DNA of 61,566 bases from Acidimicrobiia bacterium (GTDB lineage: Bacteria; Actinomycetota; Acidimicrobiia; Acidimicrobiales; AC-14), in NCBI GenBank assembly GCA_023264995.1, contig JAHFUR010000024.1, forward strand, positions 1 to 61,566, in the 5' to 3' direction. The translations under genes and the position numbers were made by a program. The notes beneath the pieces are model-generated. The model saw only the letters and a list, made by a program, of their open reading frames with translations, was not told the origin of the DNA and searched no databases. Positions 5,231 to 15,477 of the stretch are shown here, piece after piece. Within the stretch, counting starts at the first letter, position 1. Each line of letters starts with the position of its first letter.

Positions 5231-5641
5231 TCAGATCGATCCGTTCGGAACGACCCACTCGTGGTCCGCACCGCCGGCTGCGGCAATCCGCTCGAAGTCG
5301 GCGTCGTAGTGGAGCACGACGAGACCGGCCGACTGGGCGGCCGCGGAGATCACCAGATCCGGGATCGGCAGGCGGTGCTGGCCACGCCGGGCCAACTCGT
5401 GCTGCAATTCGATGGCTCTTTCCATGACGTCCGGGGTGATGTGGGCGGAGTCCAAGCTGCGACGCTCGTCGAGCACTTCTTCGTAGTCGCTCAGGGTCCG
5501 GCTGCTATAGAGCACCTCGAGATCGACGATCGCACACGTGGCGATCAGGCCTTCCTCCAGGAGCGGGCGAAGCCGTCGGGATACCTCCGGCACACGGAAC
5601 CGGGCCAGCGCGCTCTTGTCCGCCAAGAAGCGTGCGATCAG
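5231..5641 (-). CDS. vapC: VapC-type PIN-domain toxin, module 2
   Basis: The PIN protein carries the conserved acids in LADKSA, DLEVLYSS, PIPDLVISA and HYDADF, and ends EWVVPNGSI. The only standard start, TTG at 5626, would remove the first beta strand and leave the catalytic Asp as residue 3. CTG at 5641 gives 136 residues beginning LIARFLADKS and overlaps the vapB stop as CTGA, so I use it. It is a paralogue of the toxins at 9024 and 10341, which share the C-terminal EW-[IV]-[VL]-P-x-G. It is expected to be an Mg-dependent endoribonuclease neutralised by the adjacent VapB. Confidence 0.82.
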   Translation of the reverse strand: MIARFLADKSALARFRVPEVSRRLRPLLEEGLIATCAIVDLEVLYSSRTLSDYEEVLDERRSLDSAHITPDVMERAIELQHELARRGQHRLPIPDLVISAAAQSAGLVVLHYDADFERIAAAGGADHEWVVPNGSI

Positions 5642-5844
5642 CGCCAGGCCCCTGACATCACCTGCGGGTCGTCGAGGTCGATGCCTCGCATGTCCTGGAG
5701 CCGCTCAGCATGGCGACGGCGGCGGGCGCCGGCGACGACGGACTCGAGAGATCGGTTGACGGCTTCCTTCATGGTCGATGCTCCGAGGATGGTGGTGGCC
5801 TCCACCAAGAGGTCGTCGTCGATGTCAACCAGCCGCTTGCTCAT
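5638..5844 (-). CDS. vapB: VapB-type antitoxin, module 2
   Basis: The 68-residue protein starts MSKRLVDIDDDLLVEATTIL and continues ASTMKEAVNRSLESV, the ribbon-helix-helix pattern of the DUF2191/VapB family. The second half (RRRRHAERLQDM to MSGAWR) is the toxin-binding tail. It has the same length (68) as the antitoxins at 9437 and 10761. ATG start 6 nt after a -10 box; stop overlaps the toxin start. Confidence 0.83.
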   Translation of the reverse strand: MSKRLVDIDDDLLVEATTILGASTMKEAVNRSLESVVAGARRRRHAERLQDMRGIDLDDPQVMSGAWR

Positions 5845-9791: not shown

Positions 9792-10178
9792 ATGGAAGGC
9801 GACGAGCTCGACCAAGTGCGCAAGATCGTCCTGGCCTTGCCCGGCGTCACGGAGCGCATCAGCCATGGCGAGCCGTGCTTCTTCGTGCAGCGCAAGCGGG
9901 CGCTCTGCTACTTCCACGACAACCACCGCGACGACGGCCGCATCTCGCTGTGGTGCCCCGCCCCGCCTGGCGTCCCTGCCGACCTCACGGCGAGCGAACC
10001 AAACCGGTTCTTTCATCCGACGCCTTCGGCGTCGGGCGTGTTCGCCACCTGGCTCGGCGTCTACCTCGACACCGATGGTGATGACCGCGTCGATTGGGGC
10101 GAGATCGCCGGCGTCGTCGAAGACGCCTTCCGGACTGTCGCGCCGCAGACGCTCATCGATCAGCTCGACCACCGCTGA
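9792..10178 (+). CDS. MmcQ/YjbR family DNA-binding-fold protein
   Basis: The 128-residue protein matches the MmcQ/YjbR (CyaY-like fold) family: VRKIVLALPGVTERISHGEPCFFV at the N-terminus, then a W-C-PAPPG turn and the late helix of DLDH type. The fold binds double-stranded DNA, but the biological role is not established. ATG start; transcribed alone between two vapBC modules. Confidence 0.85.
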   Translation: MEGDELDQVRKIVLALPGVTERISHGEPCFFVQRKRALCYFHDNHRDDGRISLWCPAPPGVPADLTASEPNRFFHPTPSASGVFATWLGVYLDTDGDDRVDWGEIAGVVEDAFRTVAPQTLIDQLDHR

Positions 10179-10340
10179 TTCCGTGCGTCGGACCTCATCC
10201 CATCTGAACGGCCTGCCCCGTGGACCGACCGTCCCCCAACGCCGGCGGTGGCGTAGCCCTCGGCGAGGAGGTGCGCTGGAGACCTCGCCAAACACAGGGA
10301 GGTCCAATGCCAACCGCCGGATCCTGGACGGGTCAGAATG

Positions 10341-10760
10341 TCAGTCTGCCGTCCCGCGTGGGACGATCCATTCGTGCGGCTGGCCCGTCACCCCGGCGAT
10401 GAGTTCGAAATCCGAGTCGTAGTGCAGGACGACGAGATCCCGCGCCTCGGCGGACGCGGCCACGAGCGCGTCAACGAGCGAGAGGGCCCGATGCAGGCTG
10501 CGGGCGGCAAGAGCCGCCTGGACCTCCAGGGCGCGCCGGTGGTCAGCGTCCGTCGTGGGCACCGCCGCATAGGAGGACAAGCCGTCGGCCAGCGCCTGAT
10601 AGTCGGCCGGGTTGCGAGCCGAGTAGCCGAGTTCGAGCGCCACGGGCGCACATACACCCACGAGCCCAGCGGCGGCCAACGGCCCGAATGCAGCGGTCAC
10701 CGACTGCTTCGAGAGGCGAGCGAAAACGCTCGTGTCGGCGAGGTAGCGGGCGCGCGCCAT
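10341..10760 (-). CDS. vapC: VapC-type PIN-domain toxin, module 4
   Basis: The 139-residue PIN protein has D9 in YLADTSVFARL, E43 in ALELGYSARN, and later acids in LVDALVAA and HYDSDF; it ends HEWIVPRGTAD. The ATG follows the vapB TAG stop with no gap, so the genes are co-transcribed. It is the closest in layout to modules 2 and 3 and is probably an active endoribonuclease. Confidence 0.87.
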   Translation of the reverse strand: MARARYLADTSVFARLSKQSVTAAFGPLAAAGLVGVCAPVALELGYSARNPADYQALADGLSSYAAVPTTDADHRRALEVQAALAARSLHRALSLVDALVAASAEARDLVVLHYDSDFELIAGVTGQPHEWIVPRGTAD

Positions 10761-10967
10761 CTACCCGTCCGCGCCCCAAGCCGCATCCGCGGCGTCGAAG
10801 TCGAACCTCCCCTCCTCGCCCAGCAGCGCGATGAGCTCGAGGCGCCGCTTGGCGTGCACGACCTCCCGGAGGGCGGCGTCGATGGTCTCCCGCAACGTCC
10901 GGGTTCCCAGGATGGCAGCGGCCTGCCGCACGATATCCTGATCAACCTCAACAGAGGTCTTCGACAC
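10761..10967 (-). CDS. vapB: VapB-type antitoxin, module 4
   Basis: The 68-residue antitoxin begins VSKTSVEVDQDIVRQAAAIL and continues GTRTLRETIDAALREVV; the tail is rich in acidic and aromatic residues (GRFDFDAADAAW). GTG at 10967 was chosen over an upstream ATG (11039) because a -10 box lies 6 nt before it and the length then equals its two paralogues. Confidence 0.83.
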   Translation of the reverse strand: MSKTSVEVDQDIVRQAAAILGTRTLRETIDAALREVVHAKRRLELIALLGEEGRFDFDAADAAWGADG

Positions 10968-10973
10968 GTTCCT

Positions 10974-10979
10974 AGGATA
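10974..10979 (-). promoter_or_regulatory. -10 box of vapBC-4, leaderless
   Basis: On the minus strand TATCCT lies 6 nt before the GTG at 10967, the same geometry as in the other three modules. Confidence 0.5.
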
Positions 10980-11191
10980 TCTCGCCAAGCCTTCGGCCCT
11001 CAGCTCCCCCTCCCCGGCTTCAGCGAACGGGCCGGTCATTCCCCAGGAGCTGGCCGGTGATGCCCGCCCCGGCGCCGCTCGGCCCTCGACGCCGGGCTGG
11101 ATGACAATCGGCGTTCGTGGAGGGTGTTCACCCCGCCCGGGCCAACGAACCCGGGGCCCACCCTTGACGGACGATTGCCCGGCCGATCACA

Positions 11192-11407
11192 ATGCCAGCC
11201 ATGGCATTCGGTCGAAAGAACAAGGACGCAGCTCCCCAGCAGTCCGTACCCCAATCAAGCTCACAGCCGGGCACACCCTGGCAGTCCTACACCGGCAGCG
11301 GCGGCTACCTGGTTACCGAGTTGCCCTACTACGACAAGGGCAAGCGCAAGGTCATGATCTACACGTCCGACTCCTCCGGAAAGATCATCAAGACCTTCAA
11401 GAAGTAG
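11192..11407 (+). CDS. Small hypothetical protein
   Basis: The 71-residue protein has a basic start (FGRKNKD), a Q/S/P-rich middle, and a beta-rich second half with LVTELPYYDKGKRKVMIYTS and DSSGKIIKTFKK. ATG at 11201 is an alternative start. A hairpin follows 33 bp downstream. Codon use and the ordered C-terminal half suggest a real gene; the function is unknown. Confidence 0.6.
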   Translation: MPAMAFGRKNKDAAPQQSVPQSSSQPGTPWQSYTGSGGYLVTELPYYDKGKRKVMIYTSDSSGKIIKTFKK

Positions 11408-11439
11408 CGCGTCAGCGCTTACCTCACCACGGTGCGTGA

Positions 11440-11462
11440 CCTCGGCCTGTCAGGGGCCGAGG
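11440..11462. terminator. Bidirectional hairpin terminator
   Basis: CCTCGGCC and GGCCGAGG form a perfect 8-bp stem around a 7-nt loop, placed between the convergent ends of the genes at 11407 and 11570. No long T run follows. Confidence 0.5.
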
Positions 11463-11569
11463 GCTTGTGTGACGCGAGCGCGTCCCGGCGGATCCCGACC
11501 ACTTCAGCCGCCGGCGGGAGGCACGCGCCGCTCTTCGCCGGCCGTCGGCCAGAGGTGGCCCGCGCCGGG

Positions 11570-11902
11570 CTATTTGTCGTTGAGCCCGCACGGGACGTCG
11601 CCCATGAGGTTGCACGCCCCGTCGCGGGGGCACGACGTATCGCCCTCGTCGCAGGTGAAGCACACGATGTCGTGCTGCTTGTTGCAGGTGAAGTCGGAGG
11701 CGTCGCAGGACGTGCACGCGTCCTGCGGGCTGTCGCAGAGCACGCACGTGTCCGCCGATCCACCTGCCGGGGGCCGACCGGCCCCGAGCCGCTCGGCCGA
11801 TAGCTCGAAACCGGGCCCGAACCGGGCCGTGAGGGCGGCCAGCAGGGCCTCGGCCTGGTGGGCTCCCTCCGCAGGGCCGGCGGCCTTAACAGTGTCGGTC
11901 AC
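11570..11902 (-). CDS. Candidate Cys-rich RiPP precursor peptide
   Basis: From GTG 11902 the product is 110 residues. Residues 1-50 look like a leader with an amphipathic helix (AEALLAALTARFG). Residues 53-110 hold ten cysteines at 53, 56, 63, 66, 73, 81, 84, 91, 97 and 105: three CxxC pairs plus singles, with C-D-x5-C repeated three times (CDSPQDAC, CDASDFTC, CDEGDTSC). AGAGGG precedes the GTG; an upstream ATG would overlap the enzyme gene by 59 bp. The gene follows a radical SAM/SPASM gene by 61 bp on the same strand. Such pairs make thioether-bridged RiPPs (ranthipeptide or sactipeptide type). A small metal-binding protein is the main alternative. I do not recognise the family. Confidence 0.65.
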   Translation of the reverse strand: MTDTVKAAGPAEGAHQAEALLAALTARFGPGFELSAERLGAGRPPAGGSADTCVLCDSPQDACTSCDASDFTCNKQHDIVCFTCDEGDTSCPRDGACNLMGDVPCGLNDK

Positions 11903-11963
11903 TGGCCCACCCTCTTCGAGGGATGGCCCACTGAATGCAAGATGGACCGGCCTCCCGGGCCGG

Positions 11964-13205
11964 TCACTGGTCCCCCTCGACGGCAGGCGTGCGACATGGA
12001 TCGAAGTGGCTCCCGTGTGCACCCGAGCTCTGTAGGCTGGCCGCCGCCTCGATCTGAGCCAGGACCCGGTTGATGGGCGGAGGCACGGTGGGATCGCCGG
12101 TCATGTACTCGTTGACGGCCATGCAGTTGCTCCCGCACACGCTCAGCAGGGAACAGTTGCCGCATCGGCGTTCTTCGGCACCGATGTCGTCGCGGAACAG
12201 GCCGTGGCCGCAGCCCGCGTGCGATGACGAGTGGTTGGCCACGATGTACTGCTCGCGGGCGTCGACATCGAAGCCGCGGTCCACGTGACCGACCCGCTGC
12301 CCGGGCCCGTTGCGGAAGTACCCAACGAACCGGTGACAGGGGTACAGGTAGCCCTCGGCATCGACGGCCACGAAGCTCCGGGCCGCGCCGCAGCCCCAGC
12401 GCTCGCCCGAGGACTCCAACGCCTGGCCGGTCCTGGCCAGGGAGCCGATGCGCACCCCTGGCCATTCCGCCTGCATGCGGTGCAGTTCACCGAGGGCGGC
12501 GTAGAGGTGGGCCAGGTCATCCTCGGACCAGGCCGCTTCGATCACGGGCGAGAAGCTGATCGACCGGAAGCCCCGCTCGCCAAGCCACGCGATGGAGCCC
12601 GGCAGGTCGACGGCGGTCTCGGGCGACACGGTCAGGCGGACCGACACCGACGGTAGCGCCGCCGCCCGCTCGAGATGCCGGGCGATGAGCGCAAACGAGC
12701 CACGACCAGCCCGGGTGCGCCGGTGCCGGTCGTGCGCGTCACCGATACCGTCAAGGCTGAGCCGCACCGAGATCCCGAGGCGCTCGATCATCTCGACGTT
12801 GGCCGCCGAGAGCAACGTGGCATTGGACGTCATGCTGAACGCGACGGGCCGGTCCTGGCCGGCGGCGAGTGCCGTGGCCTCGGCGTGGACCAGTTCGATC
12901 AGGCCGGGCTCGAGCAACGGCTCGCCGCCGAAGAAGGTGATCGACAACGCGGCCGGAGGGGGCGGGGCGTGCTCGAACAGGAACCCCGCCGATCGCCGGG
13001 CGATCGCCTGGCTCATGGTCCGGGGCTGCTTGCGGATGTAGCAGTAGTCGCACCGCAGGTTGCATTCCTCGGTGATCAGCATCACGACGTTGAGGATCGG
13101 GTGCCGCTCCGACCGGAAGCCATCGCCGACGTCGAGCCGCTTCCGGCCCCGTTCACCCTTGGTACCCAGACGGACGGGCACCGCGTCGACCAGGTCGATG
13201 GTCAC
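11964..13205 (-). CDS. Radical SAM/SPASM peptide-maturase-like enzyme
   Basis: The 413-residue protein has the SAM cluster motif C48-x3-C52-x2-C55 (CNLRCDYCY), the GGEP motif at about 93-96 (FFGGEPLL), and a C-terminal SPASM region: C272, C290, C332 and then C348-x2-C351-x5-C357-x3-C361. SPASM proteins carry auxiliary 4Fe-4S clusters and mostly modify ribosomal peptides; the class also includes anaerobic sulfatase maturases. There is no sulfatase nearby, but a ten-cysteine small protein follows directly, so peptide maturation is the best reading. No RiPP recognition element is evident at the N-terminus. GTG start at 13205, with TACGGT 8 nt upstream. Confidence 0.88.
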   Translation of the reverse strand: MTIDLVDAVPVRLGTKGERGRKRLDVGDGFRSERHPILNVVMLITEECNLRCDYCYIRKQPRTMSQAIARRSAGFLFEHAPPPPAALSITFFGGEPLLEPGLIELVHAEATALAAGQDRPVAFSMTSNATLLSAANVEMIERLGISVRLSLDGIGDAHDRHRRTRAGRGSFALIARHLERAAALPSVSVRLTVSPETAVDLPGSIAWLGERGFRSISFSPVIEAAWSEDDLAHLYAALGELHRMQAEWPGVRIGSLARTGQALESSGERWGCGAARSFVAVDAEGYLYPCHRFVGYFRNGPGQRVGHVDRGFDVDAREQYIVANHSSSHAGCGHGLFRDDIGAEERRCGNCSLLSVCGSNCMAVNEYMTGDPTVPPPINRVLAQIEAAASLQSSGAHGSHFDPCRTPAVEGDQ

Positions 13206-13213
13206 GGCCGGCG

Positions 13214-13219
13214 ACCGTA
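13214..13219 (-). promoter_or_regulatory. -10 box of the radical SAM operon
   Basis: On the minus strand TACGGT lies 8 nt before the GTG at 13205, predicting a leader of zero to two bases. Confidence 0.4.
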
Positions 13220-13283
13220 CCAGCTCACCGGCTCAGCCGCTCGGGCCCCAGGTACGCCGGCGGCTCACCCGGGCCCGCCCTTG

Positions 13284-13289
13284 TAGGAT
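13284..13289 (+). promoter_or_regulatory. -10 box of the membrane protein gene at 13297
   Basis: TAGGAT lies 7 nt before the ATG at 13297; no Shine-Dalgarno in between. Confidence 0.4.
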
Positions 13290-13296
13290 CTCCTCG

Positions 13297-13692
13297 ATGC
13301 CGCTTCGGCGCTCGCGCACCTGGTCGTTCCTTGGCGTCATCGCCATTGTCATCGCCGCCGGTATCGGCGTCGGATCGCGTGCCGGGACCGACCACCCCTT
13401 CGCCGGCGCCGGCGCCGCCACGTTGGCCCGGCCAGTTTCGCCGGCCCCGCTCGACCCGGTCATGATCCGCGAGTCCGACCGGATCGAGAGCGCCCTGTCG
13501 GCTGCCTCGACATCGAACGCCCGGCACGCGTTGCTGCTCGCCGCGCTCTTGGTCGGGTTCATGCTCAAGGTGGCTCCCGCGCCTGCGTGCCGCACGACGC
13601 CAGCCGGCGGCCGTCCATCGGCCATGCGGCTCCGGCGGTGGGTCAACCGCCGCGGCCCGCCCTCCTCCCCGTTCGTCTCGATCACTCGCTGA
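13297..13692 (+). CDS. Small membrane protein, unknown function
   Basis: 131 residues with a first membrane helix at about 10-28 (SFLGVIAIVIAAGIGVGS), an external segment of about 45 residues, and a second helix at about 78-95 (HALLLAALLVGFMLKVA); the tail is basic and proline-rich. It is divergent from the radical SAM operon with 91 bp between. It could be an immunity or export helper for that operon, but nothing in the sequence proves it. Confidence 0.55.
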   Translation: MPLRRSRTWSFLGVIAIVIAAGIGVGSRAGTDHPFAGAGAATLARPVSPAPLDPVMIRESDRIESALSAASTSNARHALLLAALLVGFMLKVAPAPACRTTPAGGRPSAMRLRRWVNRRGPPSSPFVSITR

Positions 13693-13889
13693 CGATCGCC
13701 CTTCGGGGCAACTGGAGGGACTATGTCAACCCCTTGTGCCGAGCCCGATCGGGCGCGGCGCACCACCTGGTCGGGTTCCTGGTGACCGCCGGGTTGAAGA
13801 CGGGCGGATCGGACCGGGTGCGCCACGTGGCCCTCCGGCGGAAGCAGGCCGGCCAGCGCGGCCACCGCACCCTCGGCGCGATCGGTCGG

Positions 13890-14291
13890 GTGGAGGACGG
13901 CATGCACATGGCCGTGTGCCTCGTGCTGGTGGTCGTGAGCATCCTCGTGCTCGTCCACTCGACCGCCGACTTCTTCGGCGGCAAGAACACCTTCGCCGAA
14001 CGGGTGACGGCGCTGGTCAACGGGGTCCTGTTCGTCGTCATCGTCATGGAGATCCTGCGGACGGTCATGGCCCACTTCGACGACGCCGGCCTCCAGCTCA
14101 AGCCGTTCCTGGTCATCGGCACCATCTCCGCGGTCCGCCACATCCTCACCGTCGGCGCCAAGACGTCCCTGGGCGCCACGGCGGCCGCCACCGAGTTCCG
14201 CCACACCGAGGTCGAGCTGGCGGTGAACGCGGCAATCGCCGTGGTGCTCGTCGTCGGCCTGGTGATGGTCCGCCGCAGCGAGCGAGGTTGA
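13890..14291 (+). CDS. PsiE-like membrane protein
   Basis: About 133 residues with four hydrophobic helices. HSTADFF, VNGVLFVVIVMEILRTV, LKPFLVIGTISAVRHIL and the final AAIAVVLVVGLVMV match the phosphate-starvation-inducible PsiE family, whose function is unknown. The start is uncertain: GTG 13890 is used because it places the first helix as in the family, but the frame is open far upstream. It is followed by hypA after 73 bp. Confidence 0.72.
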   Translation: MEDGMHMAVCLVLVVVSILVLVHSTADFFGGKNTFAERVTALVNGVLFVVIVMEILRTVMAHFDDAGLQLKPFLVIGTISAVRHILTVGAKTSLGATAAATEFRHTEVELAVNAAIAVVLVVGLVMVRRSERG

Positions 14292-14351
14292 CCCGTCTGG
14301 CGCCGGCGGGGTGCCCGGGGCCGGGCCGGCGCTCCGGCAACGACAACCCGG

Positions 14352-14357
14352 TAGGGT
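14352..14357 (+). promoter_or_regulatory. -10 box of hypAB
   Basis: TAGGGT lies 7 nt before the GTG at 14365, supporting that start and a leaderless hypAB transcript. Confidence 0.4.
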
Positions 14358-14364
14358 CGGGCGG

Positions 14365-14703
14365 GTGCACGAGCTGTCGCTGTGCGAGGCCATCGCCGCC
14401 ACGGTCACCAAGCACGCCGGCGAGCGCACGGCCGCCGGCGTCGTGGTGCGCATCGGCCATTTCCGCCAGGTGGTGCCCGACGCCCTCTCGTTCTGCTGGA
14501 CCATGCTCACCGAGGGCACCGACCTCAAAGGGTGCGCGCTCGAGATCGAGCAGGTGCCGGCGGTGGTCCGTTGCAACGCGTGCGGGTCGGAGACCACGCT
14601 CGACGTCCCGATCATGATCTGCGGCGCGTGCGAGGGCGACGATGTCACCCTCGTCTCGGGCGAAGAGTTCCAGGTCGTCTCGCTCGACCTGTCGGAGGTT
14701 TGA
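14365..14703 (+). CDS. hypA: Hydrogenase nickel incorporation protein HypA
   Basis: 112 residues starting (M)HELSLCEAI, the universal HypA N-terminus whose His2 and Glu3 bind nickel. The zinc site is CNAC and CGAC at about residues 70-90. HypA delivers Ni to [NiFe]-hydrogenase large subunits together with HypB. Start GTG 14365 is fixed by the family N-terminus. hypB follows 3 bp after the stop. No hydrogenase genes are in the window. Confidence 0.94.
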   Translation: MHELSLCEAIAATVTKHAGERTAAGVVVRIGHFRQVVPDALSFCWTMLTEGTDLKGCALEIEQVPAVVRCNACGSETTLDVPIMICGACEGDDVTLVSGEEFQVVSLDLSEV

Positions 14704-14706
14704 GGC

Positions 14707-15477
14707 ATGGGCCGGTTCCACCGCCACGACGACGGCACCACCCACGAGGACCACGACCACGACGTCAGCCATGCGCATGACCTCGGGGACCACAGCGGCT
14801 ACACCGCCACCGCCACGTCGCGCGTCTCGGTGCTCGAGGACATCTTCTCGGAGAACGACCGCATCGCCGGCGAGAACCGGCGCGACTTCGCCCGCCATGG
14901 GGTGCGGACCGTCAACCTCATGTCGTCGCCAGGCGCCGGGAAGACCACCCTCCTGAAGCGCACACTCGCCCAGCTCGCCGCCACCAAGCGGATCGGGATC
15001 CTCGAGGGCGACATCGCCACCAGCATCGACGCCGACCAGCTCGAAGGGTACGGGGCCGCGGTCGCCCTGGTGAACACCGCTGCCGGTTTCGGGGGTGAAT
15101 GCCACCTGGACGCGGTCATGGTGCGGTCGGGCCTCCAGCGGCTGCCCCTCGCCGACCTCGAACTGCTCATCATCGAGAACGTCGGCAACCTGGTGTGCCC
15201 GGCGGAGTTCAACGTCGGCGAGCATGCCAAGGCCATGGTGTACGCCGTCACCGAGGGCGAGGAGAAGCCGCTCAAGTACCCGGTCATGTTCCGGGCCGTC
15301 GACACCGTCGTCGTCAACAAGGTCGACCTGCTCCCCCACCTCGACTTCGACCTCGATCTGTTCCTGTCCAACCTGCACGACGTGAACCCCACCGCCACCG
15401 TCATCCAGGCCAGTGCCCGCACCGGCGCCGGCGTCGACGAGTGGTGCGCCTGGCTGGTGGGGCAGTCCGAGGCGTAG
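14707..15477 (+). CDS. hypB: Hydrogenase nickel incorporation GTPase HypB
   Basis: 256 residues. The first 30 contain eight histidines (nickel storage). The G domain has the P-loop SSPGAGKT at 73-80, the metal-binding CH at 132-133 in GGECHLDA, ENVGNLVCP, and NKVDL as G4. HypB couples GTP hydrolysis to Ni insertion with HypA. It is in an operon with hypA and convergent with the cupin gene, 3 bp from its end. Confidence 0.95.
   Translation: MGRFHRHDDGTTHEDHDHDVSHAHDLGDHSGYTATATSRVSVLEDIFSENDRIAGENRRDFARHGVRTVNLMSSPGAGKTTLLKRTLAQLAATKRIGILEGDIATSIDADQLEGYGAAVALVNTAAGFGGECHLDAVMVRSGLQRLPLADLELLIIENVGNLVCPAEFNVGEHAKAMVYAVTEGEEKPLKYPVMFRAVDTVVVNKVDLLPHLDFDLDLFLSNLHDVNPTATVIQASARTGAGVDEWCAWLVGQSEA

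Follow-up and report, generated by a model that had tools for sequence, protein, structure and literature searches.

What does a radical SAM/SPASM enzyme make when the gene that follows its own encodes a small peptide crowded with cysteines? The question is posed by contig JAHFUR010000024.1 of an Acidimicrobiia bacterium (assembly GCA_023264995.1), of which we analysed a stretch of 61,566 nucleotides, here called the window. An original prediction, made from the DNA letters alone, had read the pair as a candidate new RiPP system. Comparison of both genes with their relatives suggests instead that they form a ranthipeptide cassette like that of freyrasin (PapA/PapB), divergent and enlarged, a reading to which we give a probability of about 0.8. 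The coordinates of its parts are collected in Table 1.

Table 1 Features of the putative cassette (window positions)
Feature	Position	Strand	Remarks
Enzyme, putative PapB-family radical SAM/SPASM maturase	11964..13205	−	413 aa; GTG start; no fused RRE
CNLRCDYC, SAM-binding cluster ligands (residues 48–55)	13041..13064	−	Cys48, 52 and 55 in 43/43 rows of alignment
SPASM region, Cys272 to Cys361	12123..12392	−	Cys 272, 290, 348, 351, 357 and 361, each in 43/43 rows
Cys332, extra Cys before SPASM CxxC	12210..12212	−	3/43 rows; gap in other 40
Arg380, usual site of seventh SPASM Cys	12066..12068	−	Cys in 40/43 rows
MIRU-like repeat unit with 22-codon mini-ORF	11899..11967	−	GTGA overlaps with both flanking genes
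Precursor peptide	11570..11902	−	110 aa; GTG start; homologue in L008
Leader, residues 1–52	11747..11902	−	No Cys; leader/core border and cleavage site predicted
Leader segment EALLAALTARF, candidate recognition motif	11819..11851	−	Aligns with DLLAGLTSRF (L008) and EILKSLQKQH (L036); role predicted
Core, residues 53–110	11573..11746	−	Ten Cys, one Asp partner apiece at +3 to +5

Cysteine–aspartate pairs in the precursor and its relatives

Both open reading frames have coding-like composition, with a third-position G+C of 0.88 in the enzyme and 0.89 in the precursor. The 413-residue enzyme with its CNLRCDYC motif is present as originally described, as is the 110-residue frame that keeps all ten cysteines in its second half, among them three CxxC pairs (CVLC, CTSC and CFTC), with C-D-x5-C occurring three times. 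That description had passed over the aspartates: there are ten of them, one for each core cysteine, at offsets of 4, 5, 4, 4, 5, 4, 4, 3, 5 and 4, giving six CX3D, three CX4D and one CX2D spacings. Among 4,000 shuffles of the 59-residue core with the same letters, ten pairs were never reached (0/4,000) and six CX3D motifs were reached at a frequency of 0.0005. The six CX3D spacings match the Cys-X3-Asp/Glu motif of freyrasin precursors, and the freyrasin_like profile NF037957 is the sole NCBIfam match of the peptide, at 18.6 bits under a cut-off of 30; there was no match in Pfam.

The closest relative of the window enzyme, 61% identical, is encoded at L008, on a contig labelled Phycisphaerae that we suspect to be mis-binned, together with a precursor 44% identical to that of the window. 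The L008 precursor contains 11 cysteines and 11 aspartates, ten of which are paired within +3 to +5, and has no NF037957 match at E ≤ 0.1. Loss of cysteine conservation among homologues had been named as grounds for doubting a RiPP; in the stretch where the two cores overlap, conservation covers all 14 Cys and Asp residues of the window peptide but 9 of the remaining 23 (Fisher p = 0.0002), with 6 of the 14 encoded by different synonymous codons. Cysteine-rich homologues occurring without the enzyme, another such ground, did not appear in the searches made, three weak matches in the genome itself (E 0.07–0.31) aside. With both genes recurring together at L008, the original idea of a radical SAM/SPASM enzyme acting on a cysteine-rich precursor, very likely to yield a thioether RiPP, is upheld. 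A further pair, L036, lies on a plasmid of Methylocystis iwaonis (enzyme WP_281932655.1, peptide WP_350356532.1). Its peptide is annotated as a ‘freyrasin family ranthipeptide’, scores 70.8 bits on freyrasin_like, over the cut-off, and has seven cysteines and seven aspartates, all in CX3D motifs.

Since every core cysteine has an aspartate partner to itself, the enzyme probably makes up to ten rings. In freyrasin, PapB joins the cysteine sulfur to the β carbon of aspartate in six CX3D motifs (parts of PMC9413430, PMC8326336 and PMC11002830), and in vitro it accepts spacings of n = 0–6 (0 and 6 incompletely) and makes nested rings (part of PMC9413430). The window enzyme would form the same Cys-S to Asp-Cβ rings, up to ten instead of six: bound to an auxiliary [4Fe-4S] cluster, the thiolate of a substrate cysteine would add to give the thioether, and rings would overlap in CxxCDx(2-3)D blocks, the cysteine of one lying inside the next. 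We regard it as unlikely that the rings are fewer or of another kind, with only some cysteines (for example those of the six CX3D motifs) crosslinked and the rest in disulfides or bound to metal, or with acceptors other than aspartate. Only six of the ten motifs are CX3D, PapB prefers that spacing where alternatives exist (part of PMC9413430) and SCIFF peptides are reported with a single thioether despite six cysteines (part of PMC8326336), but all ten cysteines of the window peptide have an aspartate within +3 to +5, and cysteine and aspartate counts are equal in the window, L008 and L036 peptides alike.

The notion that the peptide is a plain metal-binding, cysteine-rich protein lying by chance beside a radical SAM gene is highly improbable: the three CxxC pairs and the lack of a Pfam match would suit it, yet the homologous pair at L008 and the related pair at L036 place enzyme and peptide together in three different surroundings, the Cys/Asp pairing lies far above that of shuffled cores, and the L036 peptide bears a freyrasin-family annotation.

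Family placement and anatomy of the enzyme

The top NCBIfam match of the window enzyme is PapB (NF047865), at 303.4 bits and E = 2e-90 with a cut-off of 340, and the second-best family reaches 146 bits. The L008 enzyme scores 321 bits on the same model and the L036 enzyme 411.8 bits. The three fall into one clade (support 98/97) of a 43-row tree, so that the window enzyme groups with a member that passes the NF047865 cut-off. Being itself below that cut-off, it is filed, on its sequence, as a divergent relative inside the PapB clade and not as a curated member. The alignment and tree comprised P0001, L008, L036 and 40 of 56 candidate sequences; the 16 others were 12 viral-contig sequences, L011, the near-duplicates L043 and L062, and a fragment (the first ORF of L085). 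A motif filter and skip list had earlier removed other ORFs (for example L012–L015, L042, L055, L067 and L083), L049, L078 and L084 are likewise outside the alignment, and P. polymyxa PapB itself is absent from the tree. The original statement that the pair matches no known family thus does not hold: the best enzyme match is PapB and the sole precursor match freyrasin_like, though both fall below cut-off, and the clade-mate L036 passes both. Because the pair joins the PapB/freyrasin clade, we reject a new RiPP class.

The L036 pair resembles that of the window in its clade, its lack of a fused RRE, its Cys332 equivalent, its missing seventh SPASM cysteine and its precursor directly downstream, and differs in an enzyme identity of 36% and in its shorter, all-CX3D set of pairs. 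Seven cysteines make up the usual pattern of a SPASM domain. The window enzyme has six of them, and the pattern had been called complete too readily: the seventh position is Arg, Arg and Gly in the three enzymes of the clade, Arg380 being that of the window enzyme. These three are also the only ones in the 43-row alignment to possess an equivalent of Cys332. Changing that residue in L036 lowers the score on the PapB-family model by 6.3 bits, just as much as changing an invariant SPASM cysteine does, and the equal penalty marks Cys332 as a trait of the PapB family. We had considered the lost cysteine and the gained one as a private invention of the window enzyme, and set this aside since the family model treats Cys332 as conserved. 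Cys332, which lies in a low-confidence loop (residues 328–338) of the predicted structure, may serve as a cluster ligand in place of the seventh SPASM cysteine.

The structure model, built on 35 sequences without L036 and seven others, has a pLDDT of 83.5 and a pTM of 0.84, with residues 1–27 disordered (pLDDT below 50). Its closest fold is CteB (5why), with a TM score of 0.72 by query, and this ranthipeptide synthase of thermocellin/SCIFF (5wgg, 5why) is the best Protein Data Bank match in both sequence and fold. The window enzyme nonetheless scores only 104 bits on the SCIFF model TIGR03974 against a cut-off of 425, and its precursor has ten cysteines, whereas SCIFF precursors have six in 45 residues and CteB links cysteine to threonine (parts of PMC8326336 and PMC11002830).

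Least probable of all is a QhpD/PeaB-like role, in which the enzyme would mature a quinohemoprotein amine dehydrogenase subunit and make no RiPP. QhpD forms Cys-Asp and Cys-Glu thioethers (parts of PMC8326336 and PMC11002830), chemistry of the kind predicted for the window enzyme, which also matches TIGR03906 at 141.5 bits; this score, however, is far below that of PapB and below the model's own cut-off of 453, the QhpD/PeaB substrate is an enzyme subunit, and the window neighbours scanned include no amine dehydrogenase genes.

The window enzyme also differs from PapB at its N terminus. Only 47 residues precede its first cluster cysteine, Cys48, compared with 118 ahead of Cys119 in PapB (part of PMC10470005). 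No RRE is fused there: the enzyme has no PqqD match, and residues 1–27 are the disordered ones. The short extension and its disorder imply leader binding without a fused RRE, as in L036. Ranthipeptides are listed among RRE-dependent classes (part of PMC7470986). Two PqqD-like genes on other contigs of the genome may help in trans, and we infer from the enzyme itself that the leader is recognized without an RRE.

Distribution, surroundings and the repeat between the genes

Close relatives of the window enzyme are rare. Of 148 relatives searched at E ≤ 1e-40, one has a match; of 396 same-phylum genomes searched at E ≤ 1e-50 (up to four candidates scored per genome), again one; both times it is the genome of the window itself. 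NF047865 reaches further: at E ≤ 1e-50 it matches 32 of 149 genomes of the nominal phylum of L008, at 42 places, none over cut-off. When 40 of the 42 planctomycete places were inspected for a peptide encoded nearby (same strand, no more than about 800 bp away), only the genome of L008 had one with at least four CX3D/E motifs, and L054 had one with three. A high NF047865 score was therefore rejected as a marker of CX3D substrates, since one planctomycete place of 40 has such a peptide. The protein adjoining the PapB-scoring enzyme at L054 (L054:736-1320, minus strand) has 194 residues and 18 cysteines, and another such enzyme adjoins a GGCTINQP-repeat protein of 128 residues and 12 cysteines (L083:1009-1395, minus strand).

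Within the same phylum, NF047865 at E ≤ 1e-45 matches 8 of 396 genomes at nine places, of which, besides the window, one (L079) has small peptides beside it: two adjacent six-cysteine peptides with Cys-x(2-4)-Asp motifs, with four and two CX3D/E (L079:823-1237, minus strand). The L079 enzyme has 139 residues before its first cluster cysteine and falls outside the clade of the window, L008 and L036 enzymes; its peptides are possibly Cys-Asp ranthipeptides of a second enzyme lineage.

Searches with the precursor profile and in mobile elements yielded little else. The freyrasin_like model, always under cut-off, matches 2 genomes in one set of 398 and 3 in another of 396, and the four matched loci besides the window hold no ORF shorter than 300 aa that has at least three CX3D/E, bar an unrelated-looking one of 287 aa at one locus. 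Viral contig scans gave relatives of 22–36% identity with queries A1 and A3 and no match with the precursor alignment A2. Enzyme matches in phage records reach at most 28% identity; among plasmids the enzyme matched 19 records, the best being the Methylocystis plasmid at 35.5%, and precursor queries returned nothing except the L036 record itself. Among the matches listed, in titles and abstract beginnings of the open-licence ranthipeptide and freyrasin literature, no report describes this enzyme/peptide pair.

By its gene content, the L008 pair lies in the early region of a prophage-like element with its insertion site at tRNA-Lys(ctt): it is about 6–8 kb from that tRNA gene, whose end is overlapped by a tyrosine integrase, and is surrounded (L008:86-12839) by D12 methyltransferase, HTH, Erf-like, RusA-like and O-like replication genes. 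The L036 pair adjoins an annotated ABC-three component system, a candidate defence system (L036:6632-9629, minus strand). In the window, a WhiB protein is encoded, WhiB being an actinobacterial marker, and two VapB/VapC-type toxin–antitoxin pairs lie less than 6 kb from the cassette (5231-5844 and 10341-11039, both minus strand). The divergent membrane protein at 13297, which had been suggested to serve in immunity or export, finds no support in either role, with no NCBIfam match at E ≤ 1, only CopD in Pfam (E = 0.33) and no counterpart in the ORF and feature lists beside the L008 or L036 pair. The neighbours scanned (window, L008) or annotated (L036) include no recognized exporter, protease or immunity gene, and window positions 10000–15000 have no Rfam match.

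The 61 bp between the genes (11903-11963), a length given correctly at the outset, turned out to be a repeat, a feature the first description lacked. The GTG of its mini-ORF overlaps the enzyme stop and the mini-ORF stop overlaps the precursor GTG, both as GTGA. The repeat has at least 50 matches in its own genome at E ≤ 0.001 (40 of 70 first-look candidates scored), with own-genome loci including L139, L141 and L147–L151, and copies in two same-genus genomes (L108–L114), some arranged in tandem at a 65–69-bp period. The window and 17 own-genome loci together hold 36 matches, 16 of them nearly full length, and the consensus of the mini-ORF (22–23 codons) reads MTGPGGRSIEHSLGHPSKRVDQ. In 15 of these 16 units the ORF starts within an ATGA or GTGA overlap and ends in GTGA; its length is 22–23 codons in 14 units, one runs into the next unit and the sixteenth has no start overlap. 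Units stand singly or in tandem, and the GTG with which the next gene starts belongs to the last unit; an ArgJ gene follows one copy, and another copy is placed between the ArgJ gene and an amino-acid kinase gene.

Mycobacterial MIRUs are short repeats that seemingly insert at start codons and couple their ORF to the following gene at −4 spacing (part of PMC12548453). The gap repeat has the same anatomy, the −4 spacing at start codons included; on this likeness in anatomy we call it MIRU-like and do not claim MIRU membership, and none of the literature matches listed on MIRU-like elements is evidently about this repeat. In an earlier state enzyme and precursor may have shared a GTGA overlap of their own, a history in favour of the precursor start and of a coupled operon, and translation of enzyme, mini-ORF and precursor is probably coupled.

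The predicted product and its significance

The freyrasin-type reading brings together a PapB-family enzyme by profile and clade, an adjacent precursor gene and Cys-Xn-Asp motifs, including nested ones, all as in the PapA/PapB system of Paenibacillus polymyxa. Against it stand the scores of both proteins, under the curated cut-offs, the mixed pattern of ten Cys and ten Asp in CX2D, CX3D and CX4D motifs (four of ten spacings not CX3D) where freyrasin has six rings, the absence of a fused RRE, the want of any recognized exporter, protease or immunity gene among the neighbours scanned, and the planctomycete places, where a high PapB score alone does not imply a CX3D substrate. Under the freyrasin-type reading we infer thioether chemistry, the closing of all ten rings and some biological role. 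What that role might be is a weak guess: a fitness trait carried by a prophage or plasmid, perhaps metal binding.

A fuller picture is possible, though we hold it doubtful as a whole: a PapB-type enzyme without an RRE, using Cys332 as a substitute ligand for the lost seventh SPASM cysteine, would make ten interlaced Cys-Asp rings with a carboxylate beside each thioether sulfur, the peptide would end up as a stiff and acidic rod that possibly chelates metal, and the cassette would be a cargo trait of prophages and plasmids with no exporter or immunity gene of its own.

PapB is in use as a peptide-stapling tool. A natural substrate whose ten cysteines and ten aspartates are matched singly and at mixed spacings would reveal whether nature uses the tolerance that PapB has in vitro (n = 0–6), and an enzyme without an RRE would show how a leader is found in its absence. 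As curated models score both genes below cut-off, further members of the family may be unannotated. The repeat between the two genes, in turn, suggests that MIRU-like coupling elements exist outside the mycobacteria.
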